Source: Crambe crambe (taxonomy: Eukaryota > Porifera > Demospongiae > Poecilosclerida > Crambeidae). Taken from it: a stretch of 64,000 bases of DNA. Position 1 is the first letter of the stretch, and each line of letters begins with the position of its first letter. This document shows positions 11,186 through 33,674 of this stretch, piece by piece. The position numbers were made by a program, and so were the translations under genes. The stretch covers positions 744,001-808,000 of the forward strand of contig OZ004594.1 of the NCBI GenBank assembly GCA_963924555.1, given 5' to 3'. Under the pieces are notes generated by a model, which made no database searches, had not been told where the DNA came from, and was given only the letters and a program-made list of their open reading frames with translations.

Positions 11186-13414
11186 TCAAAATACTTGAAT
11201 CCTATGATTATTATAATCACAGACGTACACAAAACCATCTCCATCAACACACACTCCCCAAGGATTCGTAAAGTCACCTTTATTACTACCCCTTTGTCCA
11301 AATGAGGTTACATATGCCCCCTCAGTGGTGAACACTGATATGTTGCAGTTGCTCCAATTAACCACATACACATACTGACCAGCTACACACACACCACAGG
11401 GTCCATTCAGCTTGTTTACACCATTCTCATCACAGCCAAATGAACGCAAGAATTCACCACCATTACTGAGGACTTGGATACGAGAGTTATTATGTTCACT
11501 GACATACAAGTTGCTGTGTTCGTCTGAAGATATATCACGAATGCCATTAAACTTTCCAGGGTCTTTACCACGAGAGCCAATCTGTCTTACATAGTCTAGT
11601 TCTGTGGTGTACACGTGAATACAGTCATTTCTATAGTCACACACCATCACTTCATCTCCAACTACAGCCATACCCAGTAAATAACAGGGCTGTTTGCTGC
11701 TGTAGGTCTTCAATAGCTTCATGTCCTTACTCAGTTTCACAATCCTGTGTTCATTATGGTGAGCAAGGTACACACAGTCAGTACTATCAATGGCCACACC
11801 ATATGGATCATGAATATTATAATCAGATGCACTAATACTCTTCAATCTTGTCCCTTCCTTATCAAACACATCAATTTGATTTGAACCTGTAACAATCATC
11901 TCTCCCACAGAATTGACTACTATATCCCAAGGACACTTCTCACCACCAGTATTAATCACCCTGACAGGTTTGCCCAGCTGAGTAGGAGGGATGGAGACAA
12001 ACACAGGGAAGGGACTGCCAGCTACTTCTTGACCGTTCACAGAGACAATGAGTTCATGTCGTCTACGGAGGGTGGGTGTGTACTGGATGTGATATTCATT
12101 ACCATGAATCAGATCAACGTTACATTTGACAATGGAGCTATCAACGAGTGACTTCAGATGGCATGTGATGGTACACTTTCGTCTTGTGTCACTCCCATTC
12201 GTCAATTTAGTTTTCAGGAATAATTCAGTTGCTTTGTTGATTTCAGCCATCTTCACTCCTTCACCTGATATGACACACTGTTCAAGGTCAACTGGTAGTT
12301 GAGTTATCTTAGCTTTGGTCTGACAGAGCTGCTTGAGGTCCTCAGCACAGCTCACCTCCACCCCTACGTCCACCTTTTCCACTGGATCCAGACTCCTCCC
12401 TTCCTTGCAGTGCTCTTTGACCTCCTGGTCTATTCGACTCTCAAGCTCGGCATGCATACACATGATCTCGTCTTCAGCCGAATGCTCTACAGACTGTTCA
12501 GTGTATTCTATCACACTCTGGACCACTGCACGATCAGTGGACAGGCTCTTTGCCTGCACAGAGAGACGCTCCAACTTCTGTGTAACTTTCGTTGCAGCTT
12601 CTTTCAAAAGTTCTTGTTTGCGATTTTCGATGATGGTATGAAGTTCTTCGAACAAGTTGACGATCTCATTAGCCACAGAATCCCCCTGGGCCTCTATCTC
12701 GGACTTGGTGGTTTGTATCTCCTCCACAGCATGTGAGAGATTAGCATGCACCTCCTTCAGGGGCTCCAACTGCTGAATCAGCTTCTTCTTTGTCTCTGGT
12801 GCAGATACTTTGATGAATTCATAGTTATGACCAGAATGATCCTTGACAGTGCAGTGGAGACAGATGAGACAGCTGCAATCAAAACAGTAGATGTTCATGG
12901 GCTGGTCGTGCTTAGTACACGTCTGAAGGGGAGACTCCTGAGTAACGATCTCCTCGGCTCCTCCCCTTTTAAGCTCATCAAAAGTAACAACCTTATGCCC
13001 AGGAAATGACTTTTTCATCCTCTGATGTGCCTTGATGCATTCTTCACAAATGAATTGGGCACACTGTCGACAGAAGGCTTCGGCCTTGTCCCCAGAACAC
13101 AACTCACACTTGGCATCCACTTTACCATGAGCTCGCTCCATCTTGGAATGCAACTCTTTCAAGCGATTGACAAAGAAAGCAGTTGGGAGGTTGTCCACAC
13201 TCCCTTGAGGGAGAGTGGTGTCTTTACGACACTCGGGACAGGAGAATGGTTTGTCAAGGCCAGTCCTCAGGGCCAGCCTGTAGACGCACTGTTTGCAGTA
13301 GTAATGGAGGCAAGAGAGAACCTTGGGTTCAGTGTAGTGTTCTTGACAGATGGCACACGTAATCTCCTTCTCAAGATCTTCCACACTCTTCTCAACTACA
13401 ACACGCTCAGCCAT
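11186..13414 (-). CDS. TRIM-NHL E3 ubiquitin ligase, copy 1 (TRIM2/3/71-like)
   Basis: Intronless 742-residue protein. Domains in order: C3HC4 RING (C20, C23, C35, H37, C40, C43, C59, C62); B-box 1 (about 103-143); B-box 2 (about 165-205, CTKHDQPMNIYCFDC); coiled coil (about 205-345); filamin-type Ig repeat (about 395-505, ending GSPFPVFVSIPP); six NHL blades (about 510-742) ending RIQVF at the stop. This is the canonical order of TRIM2/TRIM3/TRIM71 proteins, which ubiquitinate substrates chosen by, or bind RNA through, the NHL propeller. Length matches the family. ATG at 13414 is the MAERVVVEKS start shared by all copies. Copy 1 pairs with copy 4: both have MAERVVVEKS with one V fewer than copies 2, 3 and 5. 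Its 3' flank carries a conserved block (11020-11135). Ligand and substrate cannot be told from sequence. Confidence 0.93.
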   Translation of the reverse strand: MAERVVVEKSVEDLEKEITCAICQEHYTEPKVLSCLHYYCKQCVYRLALRTGLDKPFSCPECRKDTTLPQGSVDNLPTAFFVNRLKELHSKMERAHGKVDAKCELCSGDKAEAFCRQCAQFICEECIKAHQRMKKSFPGHKVVTFDELKRGGAEEIVTQESPLQTCTKHDQPMNIYCFDCSCLICLHCTVKDHSGHNYEFIKVSAPETKKKLIQQLEPLKEVHANLSHAVEEIQTTKSEIEAQGDSVANEIVNLFEELHTIIENRKQELLKEAATKVTQKLERLSVQAKSLSTDRAVVQSVIEYTEQSVEHSAEDEIMCMHAELESRIDQEVKEHCKEGRSLDPVEKVDVGVEVSCAEDLKQLCQTKAKITQLPVDLEQCVISGEGVKMAEINKATELFLKTKLTNGSDTRRKCTITCHLKSLVDSSIVKCNVDLIHGNEYHIQYTPTLRRRHELIVSVNGQEVAGSPFPVFVSIPPTQLGKPVRVINTGGEKCPWDIVVNSVGEMIVTGSNQIDVFDKEGTRLKSISASDYNIHDPYGVAIDSTDCVYLAHHNEHRIVKLSKDMKLLKTYSSKQPCYLLGMAVVGDEVMVCDYRNDCIHVYTTELDYVRQIGSRGKDPGKFNGIRDISSDEHSNLYVSEHNNSRIQVLSNGGEFLRSFGCDENGVNKLNGPCGVCVAGQYVYVVNWSNCNISVFTTEGAYVTSFGQRGSNKGDFTNPWGVCVDGDGFVYVCDYNNHRIQVF

Positions 13415-13805
13415 GACACCAGTTCTAGAAGTACTTGAAACAGAGTTAGTCGAGATAACTTTCTAAAGGTTCTCTCAAAGTAGCTTTTAACACACAAAAA
13501 TAGCTGTTAAACAATGGGTGTATGTTGATAAAATTCCATTCATACCAAAAAGGGTGGGTAGGATAGATTATCTCTATGGTGATACCAATATTCACAACCC
13601 AGACTAGACTATGGGGTGATTTCTCTCCATGACTGAAGTGTACACACTGCAGAGGCTTGAGATAAGTGAGGGACAACCTCTGCATGTATCCTTAGTTAAG
13701 GGACAGGAAAAGGGGTGTGGTCTAAGTGAGAACTATTTCATGCACTGACAAGTAAAGGGGTGGGGTCTGTGGACGATGAAATAGTTTGAATCATGTGATT
13801 ATTAC

Positions 13806-14050
13806 GATTAACAGACACATATTAACACATCTTCATCAACACACGGTCCACATGGACCCTTCAAGTCACCTTCACCACTACCTTCTCGTCCAAATGAGGT
13901 CACGTACGCCCCTTCAGTGGTGAACACTGATACGTTGTGGTTCCTCCAATTAGCCACATACACACACCCCATGGACCACTCAACTTGTTCACACTATTCT
14001 CATGCCAATGGCACACAGGAATTCATCACCATTACTGAGGACTTGGACTT
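13806..14050 (-). pseudogene. Decayed NHL-domain fragment in spacer 1
   Basis: Reverse-strand sequence resembles the last one and a half NHL blades of the neighbouring TRIM genes. Segments corresponding to tccaaatgaggtcacgta, cagtggtgaacactgata and cattactgaggacttgga are all recognisable, but the segment is truncated at both ends and has internal deletions. No RING or B-box is present. It is a remnant of a former TRIM gene 3' end. Confidence 0.8.
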
Positions 14051-14097
14051 GAATATGAAAGGCTTGACACCTATGTTTATTATCTATACTTTATTGT

Positions 14098-14141
14098 GTT
14101 TCCATGGAGCATAAAGACAGCAGCTCTACCAGGTCACATGA
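14098..14141 (-). pseudogene. PRKDC exon relic, type A, unit 1
   Basis: ccatggagcataaagacag followed by the ctaccaggtcacatg tract matches the PRKDC exon start at 10104-10149 (ccatggagacataaagg, then ctatcaggtcacatg). Further relics of the same kind are at 22126-22165, 26089-26128 and 30033-30070. The AG acceptor dinucleotide of the real exon is not preserved, so these are probably not spliced in. Confidence 0.7.
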
Positions 14142-14275
14142 TCATACATGAAGGGGGAAAAAATTTTTCTCTCTCCAAAGTGGTCATTATCGAAGTGATA
14201 TTCATAATATCGTTGTAGTGCAAAAACTATAAACCCAATGCAGACAGCTGCTTCTATAAAAAGCATATATCAAAA

Positions 14276-14514
14276 GGGAAAAAACATTTCTGTGAAATGA
14301 AAAAAATGTAGGGATGACCATTGCTCAAAAAAGTAAGGAAACAAGAAGGATGGAAATCGGATCAATCTTTGTTCTACGTTGGGTAGCTTCAGATAATAGT
14401 GAGTATATGTAGGGATTGTTGGCTGGATATACAGAACAAAGATTTCCATCCTTTACTTTTTTGAGCAATGGTCATCCCTACATTTTTTTTCATTTCACAG
14501 AAATGTTTTTTCCC
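14276..14514. mobile_element. Hairpin (MITE-like) element, spacer 1
   Basis: Two inverted arms of roughly 95 bp flank a short centre. The left arm contains gtagggatgaccattgctca; the right arm contains its reverse complement tgagcaatggtcatccctac. Ends are gggaaaaaacatttctgtga and its inverse. It has no coding capacity. Confidence 0.8.
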
Positions 14515-14770
14515 TTACTTGTTCCTGGTCTTTTTTTCCCTCTTTTATGTATAGAGTTCATTCTTCTATGTGAATGCAGGGACAGAAATAGCATAGCAGC
14601 CCAATGATTATTTATCAGATATTAGCCATACAACACTTACTTTACTAGGTGGGAGAGATGATTCCAAGAAACTTTATAATTACCTCGTACCCTTATTCAA
14701 AGGTGAGAGTTAGGGGGTGTGGCCAACTAGTAGTTGACTTCACAAACTATAATCCGATCTCCCCTACAGC

Positions 14771-14836
14771 TATGACCTTATGCAAGCTAGTCCATGTCAC
14801 CATGGAGACATACAGGCAGCTGCCCTATCATATGTT
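14771..14836 (-). pseudogene. PRKDC exon relic, type B, unit 1
   Basis: A longer match to the PRKDC exon at 10081-10149 covering cttatgcaag, ccatggagacata and aggcagctgccctatca, with substitutions and a short insertion. The first ten exon bases and the acceptor are lost. Sister copies are at 22802-22872 and 26769-26836. The spacer therefore contains two independent fragments of the host exon. Confidence 0.75.
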
Positions 14837-15371
14837 CATATACAATTCTCTCTGAAGTAGAATAAGTGTACAGTAACAATGCCCACAACTACCCGTATAT
14901 TTGAAGCTTTGAACAAAATGAACAAATTGCAGTGTACACGAACTAGTGATCGTTTGAAGTGCCAAAGAGAAAGCCATGGATGATGAAGGAGAATCTCAGA
15001 ACTAAGACTTTGAGGCAGTGAGAGAATCCAGTACACATACTTCAATCAAGCTATGCGTGAGAATAACCATTCAAAACGGCAGTTCAAAAGCATTGAACAG
15101 CAAGAATACCTTACTACAATAAGCCATATTGCTCAGTGCACATAATTTAGAAAGTTTAATAATAATAATAATAAAGGCTGCACTGAAGTGCTGAGATTTT
15201 TTTTTATAGAGCCAGCTGCCTTCATAGTTACATTGGGTTTACAGTCCTGCTATGATATTACTATGAATATCACTTCTGGCAGTTGGCCACACCTCTCCAT
15301 CTTTTCCTGTATTGCCTACTCCCACATAATACTTAAAATTCAAAATTCATTTAGATACAAGAAATCAGACT

Positions 15372-17570
15372 TTAAAATACTTGAATCCTATGATTATTAT
15401 AGTCACAGACATACACAAAACCATCTCCATCAACACACACTCCCCAAGGATTGTCAAAGTTACTAAAACCCCCTTGACCTAATGAGGTCACATACACCCC
15501 CTCAGTGGTGAACACTGATACGTTGTGGTTGTTCCAATTAGCCACATACACATACTGACCAGCTACACACACACCACAGGGTCCATTCAGCCTGTTCACA
15601 CCATTCTCATCACAACCGATGGAACGCAGGAATTCACCACTATTACTGAAGACTTGGATACGACGAGATTCACTGACATACAAGTTGCTGTGTTCATCTG
15701 AAGATATATCACGAATGCAATCAGGGTCTTTACCATGAGAGCCAATCTGTCTTACATAGTCTAGTTCTGTGGTGTACACGTGAATACAGTCATTTCTATC
15801 ATCACACACCATCACTTCATCTCCAACTACAGCCATACCCAGTAAATGACAGGACTGTTTGCTGCTGTAGGTCTTCAATAGCTTCATGTCCTTACTCAGT
15901 TTCACAATCCTGTGTTCACTATGGTGAGCAAGGTACACATAGTCAGTACTATCAATGGCCACACCAAAACAGGAGATATTATAATCAGATTCACTAATAC
16001 TCTTCAATCTTGTCCCTTCCTTATCAAACACTTCAATTTGATTCAAACCCGTAACAATCATCTCTCCCACAGAATTGACTGCTATATCCAAAGGACACTT
16101 CTCACCACCAGTATTAATCACCCTGACAGGTTTGCCCAGCTGAGTAGGAGGGATGGAGACAAACACAGGGAAGGAACTGCCAGCTACTTCTTGTCCATTC
16201 ACAGAGACAATGAGTTGATGTCGTCCACGGAGGGTGGGTATGTACTGGATGTGATATTCATTACCATGAATCAGATCAACGTTACATTTGACAATGGAGC
16301 CATCAACTAGAGACTTCAGGTGACATATGATGGTGTACTTTCGTCTCGTGTCCCTCCCATTCGTCAATTTAGTTTTTAGGAACAATTTAGTTGCTTTGTT
16401 GATTTCAGCCATCTTCACTCCTTCACCTGAGAAGACAGGGTCGATTGGTAGTTGAGTTATCTTAGCTTTGGTCTGACAGAGCTGCTTGAAGTCCTCAGCA
16501 CAGCTCACCTCCACCCCTACGTCCACCTCTTCCACTGGATCCAGATTCCTCCATTCCTTGCAGTGCTCCTTGACCTCCTGGTCTATTCGACTCTCAAGCT
16601 CGGCATGTATGCACATGATCTCGTCTTCAGCCGAATGCTCTACAGACTGTTCAGTGTATTCTATCACACTCTGGACCACTGCACGTTCAGTGGACAGGCT
16701 CTTTGCCTGCACAGAGAGACGCTCCAACTTCTGTGTAACTTTCGTTGCAGCTTCTTTTAAAAGTTCTTGTTTGCGATTTTCAATGATGGTATGAAGTTCT
16801 TCGAACGAGTTCACTATCTCATTGGCCACAGAATCCCCCTGGGCCTCTATCTCAGAGTTGGTGGTTTGTATCTCCTCCACAGCATGTGAGAGATTAGCAT
16901 GCACCTCCTTCAGGGGCTCCAACTGCTGAATCAGCTTCTTCTTCATCACTGGAGCAGATACTTTGATGAATTCATAGTTATGACCAGAATGATCCTTGAC
17001 AGTGCAGTGGAGACAGATGAGACAGCTGCAATCAAAACAGTAGATGTTCATGGGCTGGTCGTGCTTAGTACATGTCTGAAGGGGAGACTCCTGAGTAACG
17101 ATCTCTTTAGCTCCTCCCTTTTTAAGCTCGTCTAAAGTAACAACCTTATGTCCAGGAAATGTTTTCTTCATCCTCTGATGTGCCTCGACACATTTCTCAC
17201 AAATGAATTGGGCACACTGTCGACAGAAGGCTTCGGCCTTGTCCCCAGAACACAATTCACACTTGGCATCCACTTCACCGAGAGCTCGCTCCATCTTGGA
17301 GTGCAACTCTTTCAAGCGATTGACAAAGAAAGCAGTTGGGAGGTTGTTCACACTCCCCTGAGGGAGAGTGGTGTCTTTACGACACTCGGGACAGGAGAAT
17401 GGTTTGTCGAGGCCGGTCCTCAGGGCCAGCCTGTAGATGCACTGTTTGCAGTAGTAATGGAGGCAAGAGAGAACCTTGGGTTCAGTGTAGTGTTCTTGAC
17501 AGATGGCACAAGTAATCTCCTTCTCAAGATCTTCCACACTCTTCTCAACTACAACCACACGCTCAGCCAT
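15372..17570 (-). CDS. TRIM-NHL E3 ubiquitin ligase, copy 2
   Basis: Intronless, 732 residues from the conserved ATG at 17570. An upstream in-frame extension to 17609 exists but has no ATG and is not needed. The RING is the same as copy 1 except for rare substitutions (QCIYRL for QCVYRL). The second B-box 1 helix differs (EKCVEAHQRMKKTF instead of EECIKAHQRMKKSF). The coiled-coil to filamin linker lacks the EQCV residues. Blade 4 is shortened: residues between the IGSHGKDP and IRDISSDEH motifs and after YVSES are deleted. The last blade reads GQGGFSNFDNPWG. These same signatures occur in copy 5, which identifies it as the sister of this copy in a block duplication. Confidence 0.92.
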   Translation of the reverse strand: MAERVVVVEKSVEDLEKEITCAICQEHYTEPKVLSCLHYYCKQCIYRLALRTGLDKPFSCPECRKDTTLPQGSVNNLPTAFFVNRLKELHSKMERALGEVDAKCELCSGDKAEAFCRQCAQFICEKCVEAHQRMKKTFPGHKVVTLDELKKGGAKEIVTQESPLQTCTKHDQPMNIYCFDCSCLICLHCTVKDHSGHNYEFIKVSAPVMKKKLIQQLEPLKEVHANLSHAVEEIQTTNSEIEAQGDSVANEIVNSFEELHTIIENRKQELLKEAATKVTQKLERLSVQAKSLSTERAVVQSVIEYTEQSVEHSAEDEIMCIHAELESRIDQEVKEHCKEWRNLDPVEEVDVGVEVSCAEDFKQLCQTKAKITQLPIDPVFSGEGVKMAEINKATKLFLKTKLTNGRDTRRKYTIICHLKSLVDGSIVKCNVDLIHGNEYHIQYIPTLRGRHQLIVSVNGQEVAGSSFPVFVSIPPTQLGKPVRVINTGGEKCPLDIAVNSVGEMIVTGLNQIEVFDKEGTRLKSISESDYNISCFGVAIDSTDYVYLAHHSEHRIVKLSKDMKLLKTYSSKQSCHLLGMAVVGDEVMVCDDRNDCIHVYTTELDYVRQIGSHGKDPDCIRDISSDEHSNLYVSESRRIQVFSNSGEFLRSIGCDENGVNRLNGPCGVCVAGQYVYVANWNNHNVSVFTTEGVYVTSLGQGGFSNFDNPWGVCVDGDGFVYVCDYNNHRIQVF

Positions 17571-17938
17571 GACACCAGTTCTATAAGTACTTGAAACAGA
17601 GTTAGTCAAGATAACTTCCTAAAGGTTCTCTCTAACTCAAGGAATAGATAACACACGAAACTAGCTGTTGGACAATGGGCGTATGTTGATAAAATTCCAT
17701 TCATACCAAAAAGGGTGGGTAGGATATAGATTATCTCTATGGTGATACCAATATTCACGACCCAGGCTAGACTATGGGGTGATTTCTGAAGTGCACACAC
17801 TGCAGAAGCTTGAGATAAGTGAGGGACAACTTCTCTTACCTCTGCATGTATCCTTAGTTAAGGGACAGGGAAAGGGGTGTGGTCTATCTAAGTGAGAACT
17901 ATTTCATGCACTGACAAGTAAAGGGGGTGGGGCAAACT

Positions 17939-18071
17939 AACCCCTTACCCATCACCAATATTACCAAGCTACGAGCTAACTATTCACTCCCATGACAGGC
18001 CAAGATGAGATATGAAGAGAGAGAAGTAGCTCATAGCTTGGTAATATTGGTGATGGGATGGGTAAGGGGTT
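17939..18071. mobile_element. Short palindromic element, copy b
   Basis: Same terminal repeats as at 10218 (aaccccttacccatcacca ... gggtaaggggtt), between TRIM copies 2 and 3. The downstream sequence (18072-18850) also matches 10352-10920, so the spacer and element were duplicated together. Confidence 0.75.
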
Positions 18072-19238
18072 ACTTGACTGAATTACACTCTCTTGTTGCT
18101 GAACTTTTTTGAACTGCACACAGCCGATCCCTACTTTTCGTTTTTAAATATTTTCCCCTTTACTTGTTCATAACCTTTTTTTGATATAATGCTCTATTAT
18201 TTTATTAGTCGTCCAGCAAAGATGAGGAAGGATTCTAACTAGCAAAGTAAGGAACTTACCTACTCAGTAATGGCTATACTATCATTGAAAAATGGCTGCA
18301 GGTTGGAGGCTTGTGGTAGTGATCTCCGGGAAAAATTACTCAAGCTTTTTGAAGTCTTATTTATAGGCAACTGGATGCTGTGATCCTGCTATCCATGTAG
18401 TTCATTGGAGGTTTCATTATAATACCGTATGAGCCGAAATGAATCTGATCTGGAAGGACTTGCTATCCATTGACCTATGTTAATGTATATAATTTTTTAA
18501 GGCCCTGTTGCATCAAGGCTTGATTCATAACCAGACTAGTGCCTAGGTTTACGCTCTGAGCATCGAGAGACCAACATCAAGAGAGAAAGCTAATGTCAGA
18601 GAAGCTAGTCAGTTGTGAGGTCAAGGTCCAAGTGGGGCATAAAATGTCTGCCACATTGTAGGTTGAAAAATTAATGAACCATTTCTGAAATACGTTGTTT
18701 GATGATGACGATAAGAAGTCGCTGTAAAATGACACTGCTCTGTCTCCTACTTGAGTTGTTTCTGTCTTCAAGTTAGGAGTTGCTGAACGAGTTATGAAAA
18801 AAAAAAAAAAAAAAAAGTTCAATGGGGTGATCAATGCCATCCCCACTTAGAGAGTACTATCGTACTGTCTGATACAATTCTCAATAAGTATACAGTAATA
18901 ATGCCCACAACTACCCGTTATTTTTTTTTTGTTTTTTTTTTTTAAACAAGTCTACTACACCATGTGTATATTTGTAAGCTCTCCAAAAAATTGATTTTTG
19001 AAATGGATTGATAGAAATTTTTTGCAGCCTGTGTATGGGGGGGGGGGGGGGGGGGGCTATTTTTATAGAGCCAGCTGCCTTCACAGTTGCATTGGGTTTA
19101 TAGATTACATTCCTGCTATGAATATCACTTCTGGCAGTTGGCCACACCTCTCCATCTTTTCCTGTATTGCCTACTCCCACATACTGGACATAAACAGTAC
19201 AAATTAAAAATTCATTAGATACAAGAAATCAAAGTAGA

Positions 19239-21470
19239 TTAAAATACTTGAATCCTAACATTATCATTGTCACAGACGTACACAAAACCATCTCCATCAA
19301 CACACACTCCCCAAGGATACTTAAAGTCACCTTTACTACTACCCTTTTGTCCAAATGAGGTTACATATGCTCCCTCAGTGGTGAACACTGATACGTTGTG
19401 GTTGCTCCAATTAACCACATACACATACTGACCAGCTACACACACACCACGGGGTACATTCAGCTTGTTCACACCATTCTCATCACAGCCAAATGAACGC
19501 AGGAATTCACCACCATTACTGAGGACTTGGATACGAGAGTTATCACTATCACTGACATACAAGTTGCTGTGTTCGTCTGAAGATATATCACGAATGCCAT
19601 CAAACTTTCCAGGGTCTTTACCATGAGAGCCAATCTGTCTTACATAGTCTAGTTCTGTGGTGTACACGTGAATACAGTCATTTTTACAGTCACACACCAT
19701 CACTTCATCTCCAACTACAGCCATACCACGTAAATAACAGGACTGTTTGCTGCTGTAGGTCTTCAATAGCTTCATGTCCTTACTCAGTTTCACAATCCTG
19801 TGTTCACTAATGTGAGCAAGGTACACACAGTCAGTACTATCAATGGCCACACCATGTGGATGACGAATATTATAATCAGATGCACTAATACTCTTCAATC
19901 TTGTCCCTTCCTTATCAAACACATCAATTTGATTCGAACCTAAAACAACCATCTCTCCCACAGAATTGATTACCATATCTATAGGTTTCTTATAACCACC
20001 AGTATTAATCACCCTGACAGGTTTGCCCAGCTGAGTAGGAGGGATGGAGACAAACACAGGGAAGGGACTGCCAGCTACTTCTTGTCCGTTTACAGAGACA
20101 ATGAGTTCATGTCGTCCACGGAGGGTGGGTGTATACTGGATGTGATATTCATTACCATGAATTAAATTACATTTGACAATGGAGCCATCAACGAGTGACT
20201 TCAGGTGACATGTGATGGTACACTTTCGTTTTGTGTCCCTCCCATTCGTCAATTTAGTTTTCAGGAACAAGTTACTGGTAGTTGCTTTGTTGATTTCAGC
20301 CATCTTCACTCCTTCACCTGATAAGACACACTGTTCAGGGTCAATTGGTAGTCGAGTTATCTTAGCTTTGATCTGGCAGAGCTGCTTGAGGTCCTCAGTA
20401 CAGCTCACCTCCACCCCTACGTCCACCTCTTCCACTGGATCCAGACTCCTCCCTTCCTTGCGATGCTCTTTGACCTCCTGGTCTATTCGACTCTCAAGCT
20501 CGGCATGCATACACATGATCTCGTCTTCAGCCAAATGCTCTATAGACTGTTCAGTGTATTCTATCACACTCTGGACCACTACACGATCAGTGGACAGGCT
20601 CTTTGCCTGCACAGAGAGACGCTCCAACTTCTGTGTCACATTTGTTGCAGCTTCTTTCAAAAGTTCTTGTTTACGATTTTCGATGATGGTATGAAGTTCT
20701 TCGAATGAGTTCACGATCTCATTGGCCACAGAATCCCCCTGGGCCTCTATCTCTGACTTGGTGGTTTGTATCTCCTCCACAGCAAGCGAGAGATTAGCAT
20801 GCACCTCCTTCAGGGGCTCCAACTGCTGAATCAGCTTCTTCTTCATCTCTGGTGCAGATACTCTGATGAATTCATAGTTATGACCAGAATGATCCTTGAC
20901 AGTGCAGTGGAGACAGATGAGACAGCTGCAATCAAAACAGTAGATGTTCATGGGCTGGTCGTGCTTAGTACATGTCTGAAGGGGAGACTCCTGAGTAACG
21001 ATCTCTTTAGCTCCTCCCTTTTTAAGCTCGTCAAAAGTAACAACTTTATGCCCAGGAAATGACTTTTTCATCCTCTGATGTGCCTTGATGCATTCTTCAC
21101 AAATGAATTGGGCACACTGTCGACAGAAGGCTTCGGCCTTGTCCCCAGAACACAACTCACACTTGGCATCCACTTTACCGAGAGCTCGCTCCATCTTGGA
21201 ATGCAACTCTTTCAAGCGATTGACAAAGAAAGCAGTTGGGAGGTTGTCCACACCCCCCTGAGGGAGGGAGGTGTCTTTACGACACTCGGGACAGGAGAAT
21301 GGTTTGTCGAGGCCAGTCCTCAGGGCCAGTCTGTAGACGCACTGTTTGCAGTAGTAATGGAGGCAAGAGAGAACCTTGGGTTCAGTGTAGTGTTCTTGAC
21401 AGATGGCACAAGTAATCTCCTTCTCAAGATCTTCCACACTCTTCTCAACTACAACCACACGCTCAGCCAT
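19239..21470 (-). CDS. TRIM-NHL E3 ubiquitin ligase, copy 3
   Basis: Intronless, 743 residues from ATG at 21470. RING, both B-boxes and the coiled coil are intact. The filamin domain lacks the two residues VD before LIHGNEYH and has a two-residue insertion (TS) in the preceding helix (KATTSNLFLKTK). NHL blades are the most individual of the five: GGYKKPIDMVINS in blade 1, VCDCKND in blade 3, YVSDSDNSRI in blade 4, LNVPRGVCV in blade 5 and GSSKGDFKYPWG with CDNDNVRI in blade 6. It sits between the two duplicated pairs, so it may be the unpaired middle member. Its downstream flank contains long homopolymer runs (A 18798-18816, G 19038-19054) that could be assembly-sensitive. Confidence 0.92.
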   Translation of the reverse strand: MAERVVVVEKSVEDLEKEITCAICQEHYTEPKVLSCLHYYCKQCVYRLALRTGLDKPFSCPECRKDTSLPQGGVDNLPTAFFVNRLKELHSKMERALGKVDAKCELCSGDKAEAFCRQCAQFICEECIKAHQRMKKSFPGHKVVTFDELKKGGAKEIVTQESPLQTCTKHDQPMNIYCFDCSCLICLHCTVKDHSGHNYEFIRVSAPEMKKKLIQQLEPLKEVHANLSLAVEEIQTTKSEIEAQGDSVANEIVNSFEELHTIIENRKQELLKEAATNVTQKLERLSVQAKSLSTDRVVVQSVIEYTEQSIEHLAEDEIMCMHAELESRIDQEVKEHRKEGRSLDPVEEVDVGVEVSCTEDLKQLCQIKAKITRLPIDPEQCVLSGEGVKMAEINKATTSNLFLKTKLTNGRDTKRKCTITCHLKSLVDGSIVKCNLIHGNEYHIQYTPTLRGRHELIVSVNGQEVAGSPFPVFVSIPPTQLGKPVRVINTGGYKKPIDMVINSVGEMVVLGSNQIDVFDKEGTRLKSISASDYNIRHPHGVAIDSTDCVYLAHISEHRIVKLSKDMKLLKTYSSKQSCYLRGMAVVGDEVMVCDCKNDCIHVYTTELDYVRQIGSHGKDPGKFDGIRDISSDEHSNLYVSDSDNSRIQVLSNGGEFLRSFGCDENGVNKLNVPRGVCVAGQYVYVVNWSNHNVSVFTTEGAYVTSFGQKGSSKGDFKYPWGVCVDGDGFVYVCDNDNVRIQVF

Positions 21471-21839
21471 GACACCAGTTCTATAAGTACTTGAAACAGA
21501 GTTCAAGAAAGGCACACGAAACTAGCTGTTGGACAATGGGCGTATGTTGATAAAATCCATTCATACCAAAAAGGGTGGGTAGGATAGATTATCTCTATAG
21601 TGATACCAATATTCACGACCCAGGCTAGACTATGGGGTGATTTCTGAAGTGTACACACTGCAGAGGCTTGAGATAAGTGAGGGACAACTTCTCTTACCTC
21701 TGCACGTATCCTTAGTTAAGGGACAGGGAAAGGGGTGTGGTCTATCTAAGTGAGAACTATTTCATGCACTGACAAGTAAAGGGGTGGGGCCCGTGGACGA
21801 TGAAACAGTTTAAAATACTTGAATCATTACGATTAACAG

Positions 21840-22082
21840 ACACACATTAACACATCTTCATCAACACATGGTCTACATGGACCCTTCAAGTCATCTTCAC
21901 CACTACCTTCTCGTCCAAATGAGGTTACGTACGCCCCTTCAGTGGTGAACACTGATACGTTGTGGTTCCTCCAATTAGCCACATACACATACCCCATGGA
22001 CCACTCAACTTGTTCACACTATTCTCATGCCAATGGCACACAGGAATTCATCACCATTACTGAGGACTTGGACTTGGATATG
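21840..22082 (-). pseudogene. Decayed NHL-domain fragment in spacer 3
   Basis: Near-identical to the fragment at 13806-14050, with the same end points relative to the flanking TRIM copy. It was therefore already broken before the spacers were duplicated. Confidence 0.8.
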
Positions 22083-22301
22083 AATGGCTTGACACCTATG
22101 TTTATTATCTATACTTTATTGTGTTTCCATGGAGCATAAAGACAGCAGCTCTACCAGGTCACATGAACATACATGAAGGGGAAAAATTTTTTTTCTCTCT
22201 CCAAAGTGGTCATTATCAAAGTGATATTCATAATATCGTTGTAGTGCAAAAACTATAAACCCAATGCAGACAGCTGCTTCTATAAAAAGCATATATCAAA
22301 A

Positions 22302-22547
22302 GGGAAAAAACATTTCTGTGAAATGAAAAAAATGTAGGGATGACCATTGCTCAAAAAAGTAAGAAAATAAGAAGGATGGAAATCAGATCAATCTTTGTTC
22401 TACGTTGGGTAGCTTCAGATAATAGTGCGTATATGTAGGGATTGTTGGCTGGATATACAGAACAAAGATTGATCCCATTTCCATCCTTTACTTTTTGAGC
22501 AATGGTCATCCCTACATTTTTTTCATTTCACGGAAATGTTTTTTCCC
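22302..22547. mobile_element. Hairpin (MITE-like) element, spacer 3
   Basis: Same palindrome as at 14276-14514, same position relative to the TRIM gene. The right arm retains the gattgatccca segment that is deleted in the spacer 1 copy. Confidence 0.8.
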
Positions 22548-22801
22548 TTACTTGTTCCTGGTCTTTTTTCCCTCTTTTATGTATAGAGTTCATTCTTTTA
22601 TGTGAATGCAGGGACAGAAATAGCATAGCAGCCCAATGATTATTTATCAGATATTAGCCATACAACACTTACTTGACTAGGTGGGAGAGATGATTCCAAG
22701 AAACTTTATAATTACCTCGTACCCTTATTCAAAGGTGAGAGTTAGGGGGTGTGGCCAACTAGTAGTTGACTTCACAAACTATAATCCGATCTCCCCTACA
22801 G

Positions 22802-22872
22802 CTATGACCTTATGCAAGCTAGTCCATGTCACCATGGAGACATACAGGCAGCTGCCCTATCATATGTTCATA
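22802..22872 (-). pseudogene. PRKDC exon relic, type B, unit 3
   Basis: Same host-exon fragment as at 14771-14836, in the spacer upstream of TRIM copy 3. Type A partner at 22126-22165. Confidence 0.73.
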
Positions 22873-23194
22873 TTGAGAGAATCCAGTACACATACTTCAA
22901 TCAAGCTATGTGTGAGAATAACCATTCAAAACGGCAGTTCAAAAGCATTGAACAGCAAGAATACCTTACTACAATAAGCCATATTGCTCAGTGCACATAA
23001 TTTAGAAAGTTTAATTTTAATAATAATAAAGGCTGCACTGAGTGCTGAGATTTTTTTTTATAGAGCCAGCTGCTATGAATATCACTTCTGGCAGTTGGCC
23101 ACACCTCTCCATCTTTTCCTGTATTGCCTACTCCCACATAATACTTTTTAAGCAGTAAAAATTCAAAATTCATTTAGATACAAGAAATCAGACT

Positions 23195-25423
23195 TTAAAA
23201 TACTTGAATCCTATTATTATTATAGTCACAGACATACACAAAACCACCTCCATCAACACACACTCCCCAAGGATTCATAAAGTCACCTTCACTAAGACCC
23301 CATTGACCAAATGAGGTAACATACGCCCCCTCAGTGGTGAACACTGATATGTTGTGGTTGTACCGATTAGCCACATACACATACTGACCAGCTACACACA
23401 CACCACAGGGTCTATTCAGCTTGTTCACACCATTCTCATCACGACCAAATGAACGCAGGAATTCACCACGATTACTGAAGACTTGGATACGACGAGATTC
23501 ACGAGATTCACTGACATACAAGTTGCTGTGTTCATCTGAAGATATATCATGAATGCTATAGAACTTTCCAGGGTCTATACCATGAGAGCCAATCTGTCTT
23601 ACATAGTCTAGTTCTGTGGTGTACACGTGAATACAGTCATTTTCACTGTCACACACCATCACTTCATCTCCAACTACAGCCATACCACGTAAAATACAGG
23701 ACTGTTTGCTACTGTAGGTCTTCAATAGCTTCATGTCCTTACTCAGTTTCACAATCCTGTGTTCACTATTGTGAGCAATGTACACACAGTCAGTACTATC
23801 AATGGCCACACCATATGGATCATGAATATTATAATCAGATGCACTAATACTCTTCAATCTTGTCCCTTCCTTATCAAACACATCAATTTGATTCGAACCT
23901 GTAACAATCATCTCTCCCACAGAATTGACAACTATATCATAAGGATACTTTCCACCAGTACTAATCACCCTGACAGGTTTGCCCAGCTGAGTAGGAGGGA
24001 TGGAGACAAACACAGGGAAGGGACTGCCAGCTACTTCTTGTCCATTCACAGAGATAATGAGTTCATGTCGTCCACGGAGGGTGGGTGTGTACTGGATGTG
24101 ATATTCATTACCATGAATCAGATCAACGCTACATTTGACAATGGAGCCATCAACTAGACACTTCAGGTGACATGTAATGGTACACTTTCGTCTTGTGTCA
24201 CTCCCATTCGTCAATTTAGTTTTCAGGAATAATTCTGTTGCTTTGTTGATTTCAGCCATCTTCACTCCTTGACCTGATAAGACACACTGTTCAGGGTCAA
24301 TTGGTAGTCGAGTTATCTTAGCTTTGGTCTGACAGAGCTGCTTGAGGTCCTCAGCACAGCTCACCTCCACCCCTACGTCCACCTCTTCCACTGGATCCAG
24401 ACTCCTCCCTTCCTTGCAGTGCTCTTTGACCTCCTGGTCTATTCGACTCTCAAGCTCGGCATGCATACACATGATCTCGTCTTCAGCCGAATGCTCTACA
24501 GACTGTTCAGTGTATTCTATCACACTCTGGACCACTGCACGATCAGTGGACAGGCTCTTTGCCTGCATAGAGAGATGCTCCAACTTCTGTGTCACATTCA
24601 TTGCAGCTTCTTTCAAAAGTTCTTGTTTGCGATTTTCGATGATGGTATGAAGTTCTTCAAACAAGTTGACGATCTCATTAGCCACAGAATCCCCCTGGGC
24701 CTCTATCTCAGACTTGGTGGTTTGTATCTCCTCCACAGCATGTGAGAGATTAGCATGCACCTCCTTCAGGGGCTCCAACTGCTGAATCAGCTTCTTCTTC
24801 GTCTCTGGTGCAGATACTTTGATGAATTCATAGTTATGACCAGAATGATCCTTGACAGTGCAGTGGAGACAGATGAGACAGCTGCAATCAAAACAGTAGA
24901 TGTTCATGGGCTGGTCGTGCTTAGTACACGTCTGAAGGGGAGACTCCTGAGTAATGATCTCTTCGGCTCCTCCCCTTTTAAGCTCATCAAAAGTAACAAC
25001 CTTATGCCCAGGAAATGACTTTTTCATCCTCTGATGTGCCTTGATGCATTCTTCACAAATGAATTGGGCACACTGTCGACAGAAGGCTTCGGCCTTGTCC
25101 CCAGAACACAACTCACACTTGGCATCCACTTTACCGTGAGCTCGCTCCATCTTGGAGTGCAACTCTTTCAAGCGATTGACAAAGAAAGCAGTTGGGAGGT
25201 TGTCCACACTCCCCTGAGGGAGAGTGGTGTCTTTACGACACTCGGGACAGGAGAATGGTTTGTCAAGGCCAGTCCTCAGGGCCAGTCTGTAGATGCACTG
25301 TTTGCAGTAGTAATGGAGGCAAGAGAGAACCTTGGGTTTAGTGTAGTGTTCTTGACAGATGGCACACGTAATCTCCTTCTCAAGATCTTCCACACTCTTC
25401 TCAACTACAACACGCTCAGCCAT
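23195..25423 (-). CDS. TRIM-NHL E3 ubiquitin ligase, copy 4
   Basis: Intronless, 742 residues, ATG at 25423, 12,009 bp from copy 1. Almost identical to copy 1 through RING, B-boxes and coiled coil (EEIITQES versus EEIVTQES is a typical difference). It diverges in the NHL propeller: GGKYPYDIVVNS, KQSCILRGMAV, VCDSENDC, GKFYSIHDI, YVSESRESRRI, LNRPCGV, VANRYNHNIS, GQWGLSEGDFMNPWG. The blade-4 YVSESRESRRI motif is shared with copy 5 rather than with copy 1, suggesting gene conversion between neighbouring copies. The last blade carries VDGGGFVYV where the others have VDGDGF. Confidence 0.92.
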   Translation of the reverse strand: MAERVVVEKSVEDLEKEITCAICQEHYTKPKVLSCLHYYCKQCIYRLALRTGLDKPFSCPECRKDTTLPQGSVDNLPTAFFVNRLKELHSKMERAHGKVDAKCELCSGDKAEAFCRQCAQFICEECIKAHQRMKKSFPGHKVVTFDELKRGGAEEIITQESPLQTCTKHDQPMNIYCFDCSCLICLHCTVKDHSGHNYEFIKVSAPETKKKLIQQLEPLKEVHANLSHAVEEIQTTKSEIEAQGDSVANEIVNLFEELHTIIENRKQELLKEAAMNVTQKLEHLSMQAKSLSTDRAVVQSVIEYTEQSVEHSAEDEIMCMHAELESRIDQEVKEHCKEGRSLDPVEEVDVGVEVSCAEDLKQLCQTKAKITRLPIDPEQCVLSGQGVKMAEINKATELFLKTKLTNGSDTRRKCTITCHLKCLVDGSIVKCSVDLIHGNEYHIQYTPTLRGRHELIISVNGQEVAGSPFPVFVSIPPTQLGKPVRVISTGGKYPYDIVVNSVGEMIVTGSNQIDVFDKEGTRLKSISASDYNIHDPYGVAIDSTDCVYIAHNSEHRIVKLSKDMKLLKTYSSKQSCILRGMAVVGDEVMVCDSENDCIHVYTTELDYVRQIGSHGIDPGKFYSIHDISSDEHSNLYVSESRESRRIQVFSNRGEFLRSFGRDENGVNKLNRPCGVCVAGQYVYVANRYNHNISVFTTEGAYVTSFGQWGLSEGDFMNPWGVCVDGGGFVYVCDYNNNRIQVF

Positions 25424-25799
25424 GACACCAGTTCTAGAAGTACTTAAAACAGAGTTAGTCGAGATAACTTTCTAAAGGTTCTCTCAAAGTAGCTTTTAAC
25501 ACACAAAAATAACTGTTAAACAATGGGCGTATATTGATAAAATTCCATTCATACCAAAAAGGGTGGTCTCTATGGTGATACCAATATTCACAACCCAGAC
25601 TAGTGATTTCTCTCCACGACTGAAGTGTACACACTGCAGAGGCTTGAGATAAGTGAGGGACAACCTCTGCATGTATCCTTAGTTAAGGGACAGGAAAAGG
25701 GGTGTGGTCTAAGTGAGAACTATTTCATGCACTGACAAGTAAAGGGGTGGGGCCCGTGGACGATGAAACAGTTTAAAATACTTGAATCATTACGATTAA

Positions 25800-26047
25800 C
25801 AGACACATATTAACACATCTTCATCAACACACGGTCCACATGGACCCTTCAAGTCACCTTCACCACTACCTTCTCGTCCAAATGAGGTCACGTACGCCCC
25901 TTCAGTGGTGAACACTGATACGTTGTGGTTCCTCCAATTAGCCACATACAAACACCCCATGGACCACTCAACTTGTTCACACTATTCTCATGCCAATGGC
26001 ACACAGGAATTCATCACCATTACTGAGGACTTGGACTTGAATATGAA
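25800..26047 (-). pseudogene. Decayed NHL-domain fragment in spacer 4
   Basis: Third copy of the truncated NHL remnant, upstream of TRIM copy 4. A much shorter trace of the same junction (accattactgaggacttgc near 29960) lies upstream of copy 5. Confidence 0.78.
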
Positions 26048-26264
26048 TGGCTTGACACCTATGTTTACTATCTATACTTTATTGTGTTTCCATGGAGCAT
26101 AAAGACAGCAGCTCTACCAGGTCACATGAACATACATGAAGGGAAAAAAAATTTTTTCTCTCTCCAAAGTGGTCATTATCGAAGTGATATTCATAATATC
26201 GTTGTAGTGCAAAAACTATAAACCCAATGCAGACAGCTGCTTCTATAAAAAGCATATATCAAAA

Positions 26265-26512
26265 GGGGAAAAACATTTCTGTGAAATGAAAAAAATGTAG
26301 GGATGACCATTGCTCAAAAAAGTAAGGAAACAAGAAGGATGGAAATCGGATCAATCTTTGTTCTACGTTGGGTAGCTTCAGATAATAGTGCGTATATGTA
26401 GGGATTGTTGGCTGGATATACAGAATAAAGATTGATCCCATTTCCATCCTTTACTTTTTTGAGCAATGGTCATCCCTACATTTTTTCATTTCACGGAAAT
26501 GTTTTTTTCCCC
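26265..26512. mobile_element. Hairpin (MITE-like) element, spacer 4
   Basis: Third copy of the 14276-type palindrome. The arms are still nearly perfectly complementary, including the gattgatcccatttccatcc tract. Confidence 0.8.
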
Positions 26513-26768
26513 TTACTTGTTCCTGGTCTTTTTTTCCCTCTTTTATGTATAGAGTTCATTCTTCTATGTGAATGCAGGGACAGAAATAGCATAGCAGCCC
26601 AATGATTATTTATCAGATATTAGCCATACAACACTTACTTGACTAGGTGGGAGAGATGATTCCAAGAAACTTTATAATTACCTCGTACCCTTATTCAAAG
26701 GTGAGAGTTAGGGGGTGTGGCCAACTAGTAGTTGACTTCACAAACTATAATCCGATCTCCCCTACAGC

Positions 26769-26836
26769 TATGACCTTATGCAAGCTAGTCCATGTCACCA
26801 TGGAGACATACAGGCAGCTGCCCTATCATATGTTCA
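26769..26836 (-). pseudogene. PRKDC exon relic, type B, unit 4
   Basis: Same host-exon fragment as at 14771-14836, in the spacer upstream of TRIM copy 4. Type A partner at 26089-26128. Confidence 0.73.
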
Positions 26837-27377
26837 TATACAATTCTCTCTGAAGTAGAATAAGTGTACAGTAACAATCCCCACAACTACCCGTATATTT
26901 GAAGCTTTGAACAAAATGAACAAATTGCAGTGTACACGAGCTAGTGATCGTTTGAAGTGCCAAAGAAAAAGCCATGGATGGTGAAGGAGAATCTCAGAAC
27001 TAAGACTTTGAGGCAGTGAGAGAATCCAGTACACATACTTCAATCAAGCTATGCGTGAGAATAACCATTCAGAACGGCAGTTCAAAAGCATTGAACAGCA
27101 AGAATACCTTACAATAAGCCATGTTGCTCAGTGTGCATTATTTAGAAAGTTTAATAATAATAATAATAAAGGCTGCACTGAAGTGCTGAGATTTTTTTTT
27201 ATAGAGCCATCTGCCTTCACAGTTACATTGGGTTTACAGTCCTGCTATGATATTACTATGAATATCACTTCTGGCAGTTGGTCACACCTCTCCATCTTTT
27301 CCTGTATTGCCTACTCCCACATAATACTTTTTAAGCAGTAAAAATTCAAAATTCATTTAGATACAAGAAATCAGACT

Positions 27378-29585
27378 TTAAAATACTTGAATCCTATGAT
27401 TATTATAGTCACAGACATACACAAAACCATCTCCATCAACACACACTCCCCAAGGATTGTCAAAGTTACTAAAACCCCCTTGACCTAATGAGGTCACATA
27501 CACCCCCTCAGTAGTGAACACTGATACGTTGTGGTTGTTCCAATTAGCCACATACACATACTGACCAGCTACACACACACCACAGGGTCCATTCAGCCTG
27601 TTCACACCATTCTCATCACAACCGATGGAACGCAGGAATTCACCACTATTACTGAAGACTTGGATACGACGAGATTCACGAGATTCACTGACATACAAGT
27701 TGCTGTGTTCATCTGAAGATATATCACGAATGCAATCAGGGTCTTTACCATGAGAGCCAATCTGTCTTACATAGTCTAGTTCTGTGGTGTACACGTGAAT
27801 ACAGTTATTTCTATCATCACACACCATCACTTCATCTCCAACTACAGCCATACCCAGTAAATGACAGGACTGTTTGCTGCTGTAGGTCTTCAATAGCTTC
27901 ATGTCCTTACTCAGTTTCACAATCCTGTGTTCCTTATGGTGAGCAAGGTACACACAGTCAGTACTATCAATGGCTACACCACGTGGATGACGAATATTAT
28001 AATCAGATCCACTAATACTCTTCAATCTTGTCCCTTCCTTGTCAAACACATCAATTTGATTTGAACCCGTAACAATCATCTCTCCCACAGAATTGACTGC
28101 TATATCCCAAGGACTCTCACCACCAGTATTAACCACTCTGACAGGTTTGCCCAGCTGAGTAGGAGGGATGGAGACAAACACAGGGAAGGAACTGCCAGCT
28201 ACTTCTTGTCCATTCACAGAGACAATGAGTTCATGTCGTCCACGGAGGGTGGGTGTGTACTGGATGTGATATTCATTACCATGAATCAAATCAACGTTAC
28301 ATTTGATAATGGAGCCATCAACGAGTGACTTCAGATGACATGTGATGATGTACTTTCGTCTCGTGTCCCTCCCATTCGTCAATTTAGTTTTTAGGAACAA
28401 TTTAGTTGCTTTGCTGATTTCAGCCATCTTCACTCCTTCACCTGAGAAGACAGGGTCGATTGGTAGTTGAGTTATCTTAGCTTTGGTCTGACAGAGCTGC
28501 TTGAAGTCCTCGGCACAGCTCACCTCCACCCCTACGTCCACCTCTTCCACTGGATCCAGATTCCTCCATTCCTTGCAGTGCTCTTTGACCTCCTGGTCTA
28601 TTCGACTCTCAAGCTCGGCATGTATGCACATGATCTCGTCTTCAGCCGAATGCTCTACAGACTGTTCAGTGTATTCTATCACACTCTGGATCACTGCACG
28701 TTCAGTGGACAGGCTCTTTGCCTGCACAGAGAGATGCTCCAACTTCTGTATCACATTCGTTGCAGCTTCTTTTAAAAGTTCTTGTTTGCGATTTTCAATG
28801 ATGGTATGAAGTTCTTCGAACGAGTTCACTATCTCATTGGCCACAGAATCCCCCTGGGCCTTTATCTCAGACTTGGTGGTTTGTATCTCCTCCACAGCAT
28901 GTGAGAGATTAGCATGCACCTCCTTCAGGGGCTCCAACTGCTGAATCAGCTTCTTCTTCATCACTGGAGCAGATACTTTGATGAATTCATAGTTATGACC
29001 AGAATGATCCTTGACAGTGCAGTGGAGACAGATGAGACAGCTGCAATCAAAACAGTAGATGTTCATGGGCTGGTCGTGCTTAGTACACGTCTGAAGGGGA
29101 GACTCCTGAGTAACGATCTCTTTAGCTCCTCCCTTTTTAAGCTCGTCTAAAGTAACAACCTTATGCCCAGGAAATGTTTTCTTCATCCTCTGATGTGCCT
29201 CGACACATTTCTCACAAATGAATTGGGCACACTGTCGACAGAAGGCTTCGGCCTTGTCCCCAGAACACAATTCACACTTGGCATCCACTTCACCGAGAGC
29301 TCGCTCCATCTTGGAGTGCAACTCTTTCAAGCGATTGACAAAGAAAGCAGTTGGGAGGTTGTTCACACTCCCCTGAGGGAGGGTGGTGTCTTTACGACAC
29401 TCGGGACAGGAGAATGGTTTGTCGAGGCCGGTCCTCAGGGCCAGCCTGTAGATGCACTGTTTGCAGTAGTAATGGAGGCAAGAGAGAACCTTGGGTTCAG
29501 TGTAGTGTTCTTGACAGATTGCACATGTAATCTCCTTCTCAAGATCTTCCACACTCTTCTCAACTACAACCACACGCTCAGCCAT
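27378..29585 (-). CDS. TRIM-NHL E3 ubiquitin ligase, copy 5 (5'-most in the intron)
   Basis: Intronless, 735 residues from ATG at 29585, 12,006 bp from copy 2 and clearly its duplicate. It shares EKCVEAHQRMKKTF, the missing EQCV segment, the blade-4 deletion and GQGGFSNFDNPWG. It differs mainly in NHL blades 1 and 2 (GGESPWDIAVNS, SGSDYNIRHPRGVAID versus GGEKCPLDIAVNS, SESDYNISCFGVAID in copy 2) and in one extra RES triplet in blade 4. It is the first nested gene met by transcription of the PRKDC intron. Upstream (29600-30300) only a decayed spacer separates it from the PRKDC donor. Confidence 0.92.
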   Translation of the reverse strand: MAERVVVVEKSVEDLEKEITCAICQEHYTEPKVLSCLHYYCKQCIYRLALRTGLDKPFSCPECRKDTTLPQGSVNNLPTAFFVNRLKELHSKMERALGEVDAKCELCSGDKAEAFCRQCAQFICEKCVEAHQRMKKTFPGHKVVTLDELKKGGAKEIVTQESPLQTCTKHDQPMNIYCFDCSCLICLHCTVKDHSGHNYEFIKVSAPVMKKKLIQQLEPLKEVHANLSHAVEEIQTTKSEIKAQGDSVANEIVNSFEELHTIIENRKQELLKEAATNVIQKLEHLSVQAKSLSTERAVIQSVIEYTEQSVEHSAEDEIMCIHAELESRIDQEVKEHCKEWRNLDPVEEVDVGVEVSCAEDFKQLCQTKAKITQLPIDPVFSGEGVKMAEISKATKLFLKTKLTNGRDTRRKYIITCHLKSLVDGSIIKCNVDLIHGNEYHIQYTPTLRGRHELIVSVNGQEVAGSSFPVFVSIPPTQLGKPVRVVNTGGESPWDIAVNSVGEMIVTGSNQIDVFDKEGTRLKSISGSDYNIRHPRGVAIDSTDCVYLAHHKEHRIVKLSKDMKLLKTYSSKQSCHLLGMAVVGDEVMVCDDRNNCIHVYTTELDYVRQIGSHGKDPDCIRDISSDEHSNLYVSESRESRRIQVFSNSGEFLRSIGCDENGVNRLNGPCGVCVAGQYVYVANWNNHNVSVFTTEGVYVTSLGQGGFSNFDNPWGVCVDGDGFVYVCDYNNHRIQVF

Positions 29586-30032
29586 GACACCAGTTCTATA
29601 AGTACTTGAAACAGAGTTAGTCAAGATAACTTCCTAAAGGTTCTCTCCAACTCAAGGAATAGATAACACACGAAACTAGCTGTTGAACAATGGGTGTATG
29701 TTGTTGATAAAATTCCATTCATACCAAAAAGGGTGGGTAGTCTCTATGGTATACCAACAGGCTAGACTATGGGTTCTAAAGTGTACACACTGCAGAATTT
29801 TCAGCTTGAACTTCTTCGTGGAGGACAACTTCTCTTACCTCTATATGTATCCTGAACTAAGAAAAGGGGTGTGGTCTGTCTTATACTACAGGGCCAGGGG
29901 TGGGCCTGTGGATGACACACCCCATGGACCACTCTTATTCTTATCCTTATTTACATCATGACCATTACTGAGGACTTGCATGGACTTGGATATGAATGGC
30001 TTGACAGTAAGCTTATCATATTTTATAGTGTT

Positions 30033-30070
30033 TCCATGGAGAAAAAAGGCAGCAACTACCAGGTCACATG
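30033..30070 (-). pseudogene. PRKDC exon relic, type A, nearest the donor
   Basis: tttccatggagaaaaaaggc followed by tcacatgaacatgaagg: the fourth type A relic, about 260 bp inside the intron from its donor. No type B partner is seen here. Confidence 0.6.
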
Positions 30071-30330
30071 AACATGAAGGGTAAAAAAAAATTTTTTTTT
30101 CTCTCTCTCCAAAGTTGTAGTGATATTCTATCAGTAAGCCTGTGAAGACAGCTCAATATAATGTGTAGTAAGCTCATAGCCACTGACAGGCCACATGCAC
30201 CTCTCCATCGCATCCAACACTGACACTGTAGTTTTAACTGGAGTCCCAAATTGAGAATGACCTATTTATTTTGGGATCCTTTGGCACTATGTTCACTGAT
30301 TACACATTTGCACTCTTACTACACACTAAC

Positions 30331-33625: not shown

Positions 33626-33674
<49 letters not shown>

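Follow-up and report, generated by a model that had tools for sequence, protein, structure and literature searches.

The window, by which we mean the whole stretch of 64,000 nucleotides analysed here, is part of a 6.8-Mb contig (C17) of the 143-Mb Crambe crambe genome assembly. At positions 11186-29585, on the minus strand, it carries a tandem array of five intact, head-to-tail, single-exon TRIM-NHL genes (W1 to W5, Table 1), in agreement with the initial annotation, which had recognized five tandem copies. Pfam matches to RING, B-box, filamin and NHL were obtained in all five copies. Together with the coiled coil, which appears in a structure model of W3 as long helices at residues 202-312 and 315-338, these matches give the domain order of a class VII TRIM-NHL protein: RING, B-boxes, coiled coil, filamin and a C-terminal six-blade NHL propeller. 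The RING begins about 20 residues after the protein start. In 59 chosen and aligned proteins, the RING zinc ligands C21, C24, C36, H38, C41, C44, C60 and C63 are invariant, and the B-box Cys and His residues are invariant or nearly so (H131 in at least 90%).

Table 1. Features of the TRIM-NHL array in the window (protein lengths counted from the MAER start)
Feature	Position	Strand	Remark
TRIM-NHL copy 1 (W1)	11186..13414	-	742 aa, intact
NHL propeller of W1	11189..11983	-	variable D-A and B-C loops
Spacer W1/W2	13415..15371	.	blocks recur in other spacers, e.g. D14 95-99%, D15 97-99%
TRIM-NHL copy 2 (W2)	15372..17570	-	732 aa, intact; close to copy 5 (W5)
NHL propeller of W2	15375..16145	-	several loops shorter, in frame
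TRIM-NHL copy 3 (W3)	19239..21470	-	743 aa, intact; numbering and structure model refer to this copy
NHL propeller of W3	19242..20036	-	residues 479-743; carries 23 selected sites; pLDDT block means 85-97 over 481-743
TRIM-NHL copy 4 (W4)	23195..25423	-	742 aa, intact
NHL propeller of W4	23198..23992	-	single loop haplotypes in common with different other copies
TRIM-NHL copy 5 (W5)	27378..29585	-	735 aa, intact
NHL propeller of W5	27381..28160	-	

The genes are separated by spacers of 1.7 to 2.0 kb, among which blocks recur at high identity, showing that the genes were duplicated together with their spacers. The 1.5 kb upstream of W1, W3 and W4 show a mutual identity of 93-97%. The corresponding regions of W2 (17571-19070) and W5 (29586-31085) are only 50-60% identical to the others and to each other, and thus regulation may differ between copies; a 206-bp block is common to the upstream regions of W2 and W3. 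Rfam models at gathering scores gave no match within the window.

The opposite strand of C17 carries, about 92 kb away, a sister array of six copies, of which one has a frameshifted tail. The frameshifted copy (S3, or L019; C17:648359-650470) loses its frame near NHL blade 5 and continues into an unrelated tail; it is either a decaying copy or a sequence error. Further related TRIM-NHL clusters were found on contigs C14, C11, C20, C10, C5 and C3, and the genome contains at least 150 RING genes (150 of 598 candidates were scored, and all 150 were above the cut-off). At C5:2264870-2365702, the TRIM-NHL pairs L034/L035, L040/L041 and L042/L043 have equal scores and are each 56,848 bases apart, reflecting either a very recent segmental duplication or a duplication in the assembly.

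Positive selection on one face of the NHL propeller

The initial annotation described a body that barely changes joined to an NHL domain that varies in its D-A and B-C loops, and all 13 of the loop strings that it quoted were found in the translations of the copies. The substitution counts bear out this description, and the pattern is stronger than first stated. Pooled over the five copies, pN rises from 0.018 in the RING/B-box part through 0.031 in the coiled coil and 0.042 in the filamin domain to 0.071 in the NHL domain, while pS is 0.089, 0.132 and 0.082 in the RING/B-box, filamin and NHL parts, respectively, and 0.084 in the coiled coil. In ten copies, pS in the RING part (0.173) exceeds that of the NHL segments (0.063-0.146). 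Since pS is not lower in the RING part, the constant body is not due to fewer mutations, and gene conversion as its cause is ruled out because synonymous divergence of the body is not below that of the NHL domain. When the five NHL domains were divided by sequence motifs, pN/pS was 1.50 in the D-A loops, 1.41 in the B-C loops, 0.40 in the strands and 0.19 in the A-B and C-D turns of the opposite face, the last value being equal to that of the RING part. Variable sites occur in the loops of all six blades, including the B-C loop of blade 1.

Codon models M8 and M8a were compared with our own program, which was checked only by simulation. For the NHL domains of 11 C17 copies (the five window copies and the six of the sister array), the comparison gave a 2dlnL of 157, with 9.3% of codons at an omega of 7.75, and a refit gave 156. 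Among 20 null simulations, the maximum 2dlnL was 4.1 in 8 runs without recombination and 10.3 in 12 runs with recombination. S3 was masked in the C17 runs, although its unmasked letters remain in the printed alignment columns, and it was excluded from the ten-copy counts and the blade-wise runs; it was still used, in the pairing with S4, for the contact-type pN/pS counts and the base-exchange counts. For the body, M8 gave 2dlnL values of 11.1 (C17), 10.5 (C10), 14.8 (C5), 5.3 (C11) and 0.2 (C14). The C17 value is near the maximum of the recombinant null, and therefore selection in the body is not claimed there; by this yardstick the body signals are weak or not claimed. Run blade by blade in the ten C17 copies, M8 gave clear signals in blades 1, 2 and 3 (2dlnL 19.0, 18.1 and 28.1, respectively) and a marginal one in blade 5 (10.7); blades 4 and 6 (3.8 and 5.3) were non-significant against the recombinant yardstick.

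An AlphaFold2 model of W3, built with the alignment of 59 sequences, contains a confidently predicted six-blade propeller (Table 1), and the rest of the model is less certain (whole-protein mean pLDDT 74.4, pTM 0.48). The closest solved folds to this propeller are the NHL domains of Drosophila Thin and TRIM71/Lin41, with RNA-bound TRIM71 and Lin41 among the nearest, and it also aligns to the NHL domains of TRIM2, TRIM3 and Brat. In the model the D-A and B-C loops share a single face of the propeller, as had been predicted. According to DSSP, 20 of the 23 C17 sites with posterior above 0.9 are in D-A or B-C loops (P 1.4e-8); the remaining three belong to strands, at their upper side, and no site falls in an A-B or C-D turn. 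The upper half of the propeller, with strands divided by us, holds 23/23 sites compared with 140/257 residues, and it likewise holds 10/12 sites in C10 and 12/12 in C5. The proposal that sites with omega above 1 cluster on the top face therefore stands: the opposite face is conserved, and neither an omega below 1 at the loops nor a random spread of the sites was found.

Excerpts of the Lin41 structural study place RNA on the upper NHL surface and name 14 RNA-contact residues, eight of which are Arg or Lys (PMC5908797). By counting these 14 contacts by hand along the TRIM71 chain, we mapped five contact types per blade, namely positions P-2, P-1 and P+1 around the PxG motif and residues 1 and 2 after the Asp of the B-C turn. 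The 30 contact-type codons hold 17 of the 23 selected sites in C17 (P 3e-14), 9 of 12 in C10 (P 2e-7) and 10 of 12 in C5 (P 4e-9); these P values are only a guide, because the types were hand-counted from published contacts after the selected sites were known. Tree-free counts gave the same picture. The ratio of contact-type pN to gene-wide pS is 3.36 in the window copies (bootstrap interval 2.41-4.53) and 2.47 in the ten copies (1.92-3.12), compared with 0.83 and 0.74 for the other D-A and B-C codons and 0.13 and 0.15 for the A-B and C-D codons. No two of the ten intact copies share the same string of residues at the 30 contact-type positions, the pairwise differences ranging from 8 to 23. 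These residues include many Trp, Tyr, Asp and Cys, and their net charge varies from +1 to +8 in C17 (ten copies), from -1 to +6 in C10 and from -5 to +3 in C5. With such mixed chemistry, there is no sign of a conserved basic RNA pocket.

The same signal recurs elsewhere in the genome. In the NHL domains, M8 gave a 2dlnL of 81 in C10 (12 sequences) and 84 in C5 (10 sequences), with an omega of about 6, and values of 5.5 in C14 and 0.0 in C11, for which only five and four sequences, respectively, entered the test; an omega above 1 was not convincing in either of these two, the C14 value being weak by the recombinant yardstick. The C5 set was assembled without L035, L041 and L043, which match L034, L040 and L042 in scores and spacing, with no letter-by-letter comparison; from L040, which has an internal stop, only the later open frame was entered. 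The C10 set omitted L053 and included L039 and L057 from other chromosomes. The selected positions of C17, C10 and C5 overlap, five or six being shared by each pair of clusters (P 5e-5 to 1.4e-4). On C3, six genes belonging to a distant clade gave 2.54 at contact types, as against 0.42 for the body and 0.45 for the remainder of the NHL domain. In protein sets from nine database contigs (46 of 120 hits listed), mean entropy is 0.86-1.56 at contact types versus 0.19-0.46 elsewhere in the NHL domain. Among these contigs, 779999 is identical to this genome, and 1015651 and 369956 are close to it. The remaining six reach only 57-65% identity to the retrieved genes of this genome, and one protein from one of them has a best whole-genome match here of 62%; with matches this weak, the six contigs likely derive from other sponges.

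Recombination and differences between assemblies

Paralogous copies recombine. PHI was below all 300 of 300 permutations, both for the whole gene and for the NHL domain. Moreover, loop haplotypes recur in otherwise unlike copies, the two C17 arrays separate in the body tree and mix in the NHL tree, and the body and NHL alignments each reject the tree of the other.

The initial annotation expected the variable sites to differ between individuals, and on this point comparison between assemblies gives an indirect and mixed answer. A 906-kb contig in the protein database encodes near-identical counterparts of W2, W3 and W4, and in addition two intact copies that match nothing in this genome at more than 91% and 87%, respectively. 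The two copies with no close counterpart here suggest that copies have been gained or lost between assemblies or haplotypes, unless this assembly collapsed copies. At the level of single sites, the excess is modest: we compared 15 of the 24 given proteins, eight of which fell in the class of at least 95% identity, and in these eight pairs 10 of 118 differences are at contact types, versus 4.1% expected (P 0.023). The body accounts for 70 of the 118 differences, and three of the eight pairs have none at contact types.

Candidate function and rival explanations

TRIM-NHL proteins are known to be conserved regulators that act in development and bind RNA. In excerpts of a survey of vertebrate TRIMs, the SPRY-bearing group 2 evolves fast and is species-specific, and the others are conserved, with a mean human-mouse Ka/Ks of 0.13 in group 1 (PMC2533329), to which we infer that the NHL TRIMs belong. 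Given that vertebrate TRIMs without SPRY are conserved, the sponge case is unexpected: as far as these partial sources go, members of the TRIM2/TRIM3/TRIM71 (LIN-41) class are conserved and slow, whereas the sponge has many tandem copies with a positively selected ligand face. The closer likeness is to primate TRIM5alpha and the teleost finTRIM (ftr), btr and trim35-like genes, which, in the portions of PMC2657112 and PMC3137616 drawn on here, are duplicated, carry positively selected loops in the C-terminal domain and recombine between copies. The sponge copies have in common with them positive selection in the loops of a C-terminal ligand face. They differ in the module itself, for the variable part of TRIM5alpha and finTRIM is a B30.2/PRYSPRY beta-sandwich, and in the sponge copies Pfam and the structure match find no B30.2/PRYSPRY at the C-terminus but filamin and a six-blade NHL propeller, whose loops are a different set. 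A search of titles and abstract openings, with preprints and most subscription papers outside its scope, returned no account of a TRIM-NHL family expanding under selection in sponges or other invertebrates. In an excerpt of PMC8242945, the legend of a figure that deals with the pattern recognition receptors of Halichondria panicea includes NHL in its list of domains.

We consider it likely that the array encodes a constant-body E3 family with a selected recognition face, each copy being directed at a different fast-changing ligand in the manner of TRIM5alpha and finTRIM. Such germline-diversified ligases would probably be immune, coupling recognition of fast-changing ligands to ubiquitination or signalling by the RING. 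The proteins would be germline-encoded, probably cytosolic, predicted E3 ubiquitin ligases, the body (RING, B-boxes, coiled coil and filamin) serving catalysis and oligomerization. The sequence statistics demonstrate or strongly favour the following course of diversification: new copies arise by tandem duplication, recombination between paralogues reshuffles loop variants, and positive selection fixes replacements at as many as about five upper-face positions in each blade. Each copy may then bind a different ligand, most likely derived from viruses, from other intracellular microbes or from symbionts, and may ubiquitinate this ligand or signal through it. This mode of action would parallel that of TRIM5alpha and the fish finTRIMs, a beta-propeller taking the role of B30.2.

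Three readings would do without selection as the driver, and we give none of them more than a very small probability. Propeller loops are often tolerant of change, a point in favour of relaxed constraint on exposed loops; we reject this account, which is hardly credible, because the same protein has conserved A-B and C-D turns on its opposite face (0.13-0.19 across the five copies), and the whole bootstrap interval at the contact types lies above 1. An artefact of recombination, alignment or collapsed assembly deserves consideration in that recombination is real, the trees conflict and the array is possibly incompletely assembled. Nevertheless, the 12 recombinant simulations never approached the observed 2dlnL of 156, the pairwise measures need no tree and the pattern turns up again in several separate clusters and contigs; a recombination artefact is therefore rejected, and we attach scarcely any weight to this class of explanation. 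Targeted hypermutation of loop codons, of a retroelement or deaminase type, instead of selection on ordinary mutations, would fit the hypervariable codons, in which bases 1 and 2 vary and base 3 is often unchanged, and the 39 of 170 contact-type codon comparisons (six pairs) that differ at two or three bases. However, such multi-base steps can be explained by recombination plus selection, and all six types of base exchange occur at the contact types (n=119: A/G 41, A/T 27, C/T 21, G/T 13, A/C 11, C/G 6), which rejects adenine-restricted mutagenesis of the kind produced by diversity-generating retroelements. The transition fraction, 0.52 at contact types versus 0.65 in spacers, is as expected from selection for replacement, and targeted hypermutation thus appears extremely improbable.

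Two further readings accept the selection and change the ligand. The proteins might be RNA-binding regulators like LIN-41/TRIM71 and Brat, each face reading a different RNA (viral, transposon or the sponge's own mRNA) with targets that change. This is suggested by the selected positions, which are of the same types as the RNA contacts of LIN-41/TRIM71 (around PxG and after the B-C turn Asp), and by the RNA-bound TRIM71 and Lin41 structures among the nearest folds. On the other hand, a reader of the phosphate backbone would be expected to retain basic residues, and the predominance of Arg and Lys in the excerpted Lin41 contacts (PMC5908797) is not matched here: conserved basic upper-face contacts of the TRIM71/LIN-41 type were not found in C17, C10 and C5, where these positions are hypervariable and range in net charge from -5 to +8. 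We regard RNA reading as unlikely, if still worth keeping in view. An internal arms race, in which selfish elements or the sponge's own gamete or allorecognition ligands drive the propeller face, would yield the same statistics, and the difference in copy content between this genome and the database contig is in keeping with it. With the RING so close to the protein start, little room is left for a secretion signal; this point is not decisive, and we judge an internal arms race to be improbable.

If a constant-body ligase family with a variable ligand face is the correct reading, variable recognition would have evolved on the TRIM scaffold on at least two occasions, using unrelated binding folds, and the sponge copies would be concrete candidate receptors for sponge-microbe and sponge-virus biology. 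The exact codons are named, which makes the idea directly testable. Only tentatively, and with somewhat more doubt than belief, do we extend it to a general demosponge repertoire: a large, individual-specific, germline-encoded set of intracellular NHL-based innate immune receptors, reshuffled between paralogues, with copies gained and lost between haplotypes, which would have arisen in an animal lineage that is among the oldest, independently of the B30.2, LRR and Ig repertoires.

Other features of the window and the genome

Adjoining the TRIM array, exon-like open frames on the minus strand at 33122-37358 match the N-terminal part of DNA-PKcs. An open frame at 38497-39030 matches platelet-activating factor acetylhydrolase. 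A single open frame of 684 aa at 48519-50573 has a weak Roc/Ras-like match below the cut-off (E 9e-5). At 59904-61001, a 66-bp tandem repeat (16.6 copies, 97% match) lies within an open frame of 448 aa; 66 being divisible by 3, it could encode a 22-residue protein repeat. Elsewhere in the genome, a combination of mitochondrial features on the 19.5-kb contig C119 suggests a demosponge: cox1 reads TGA as Trp at seven codons and has AGA/AGG at nine Arg positions, and the same contig carries an open frame that we take to be ATP synthase subunit c (atp9).
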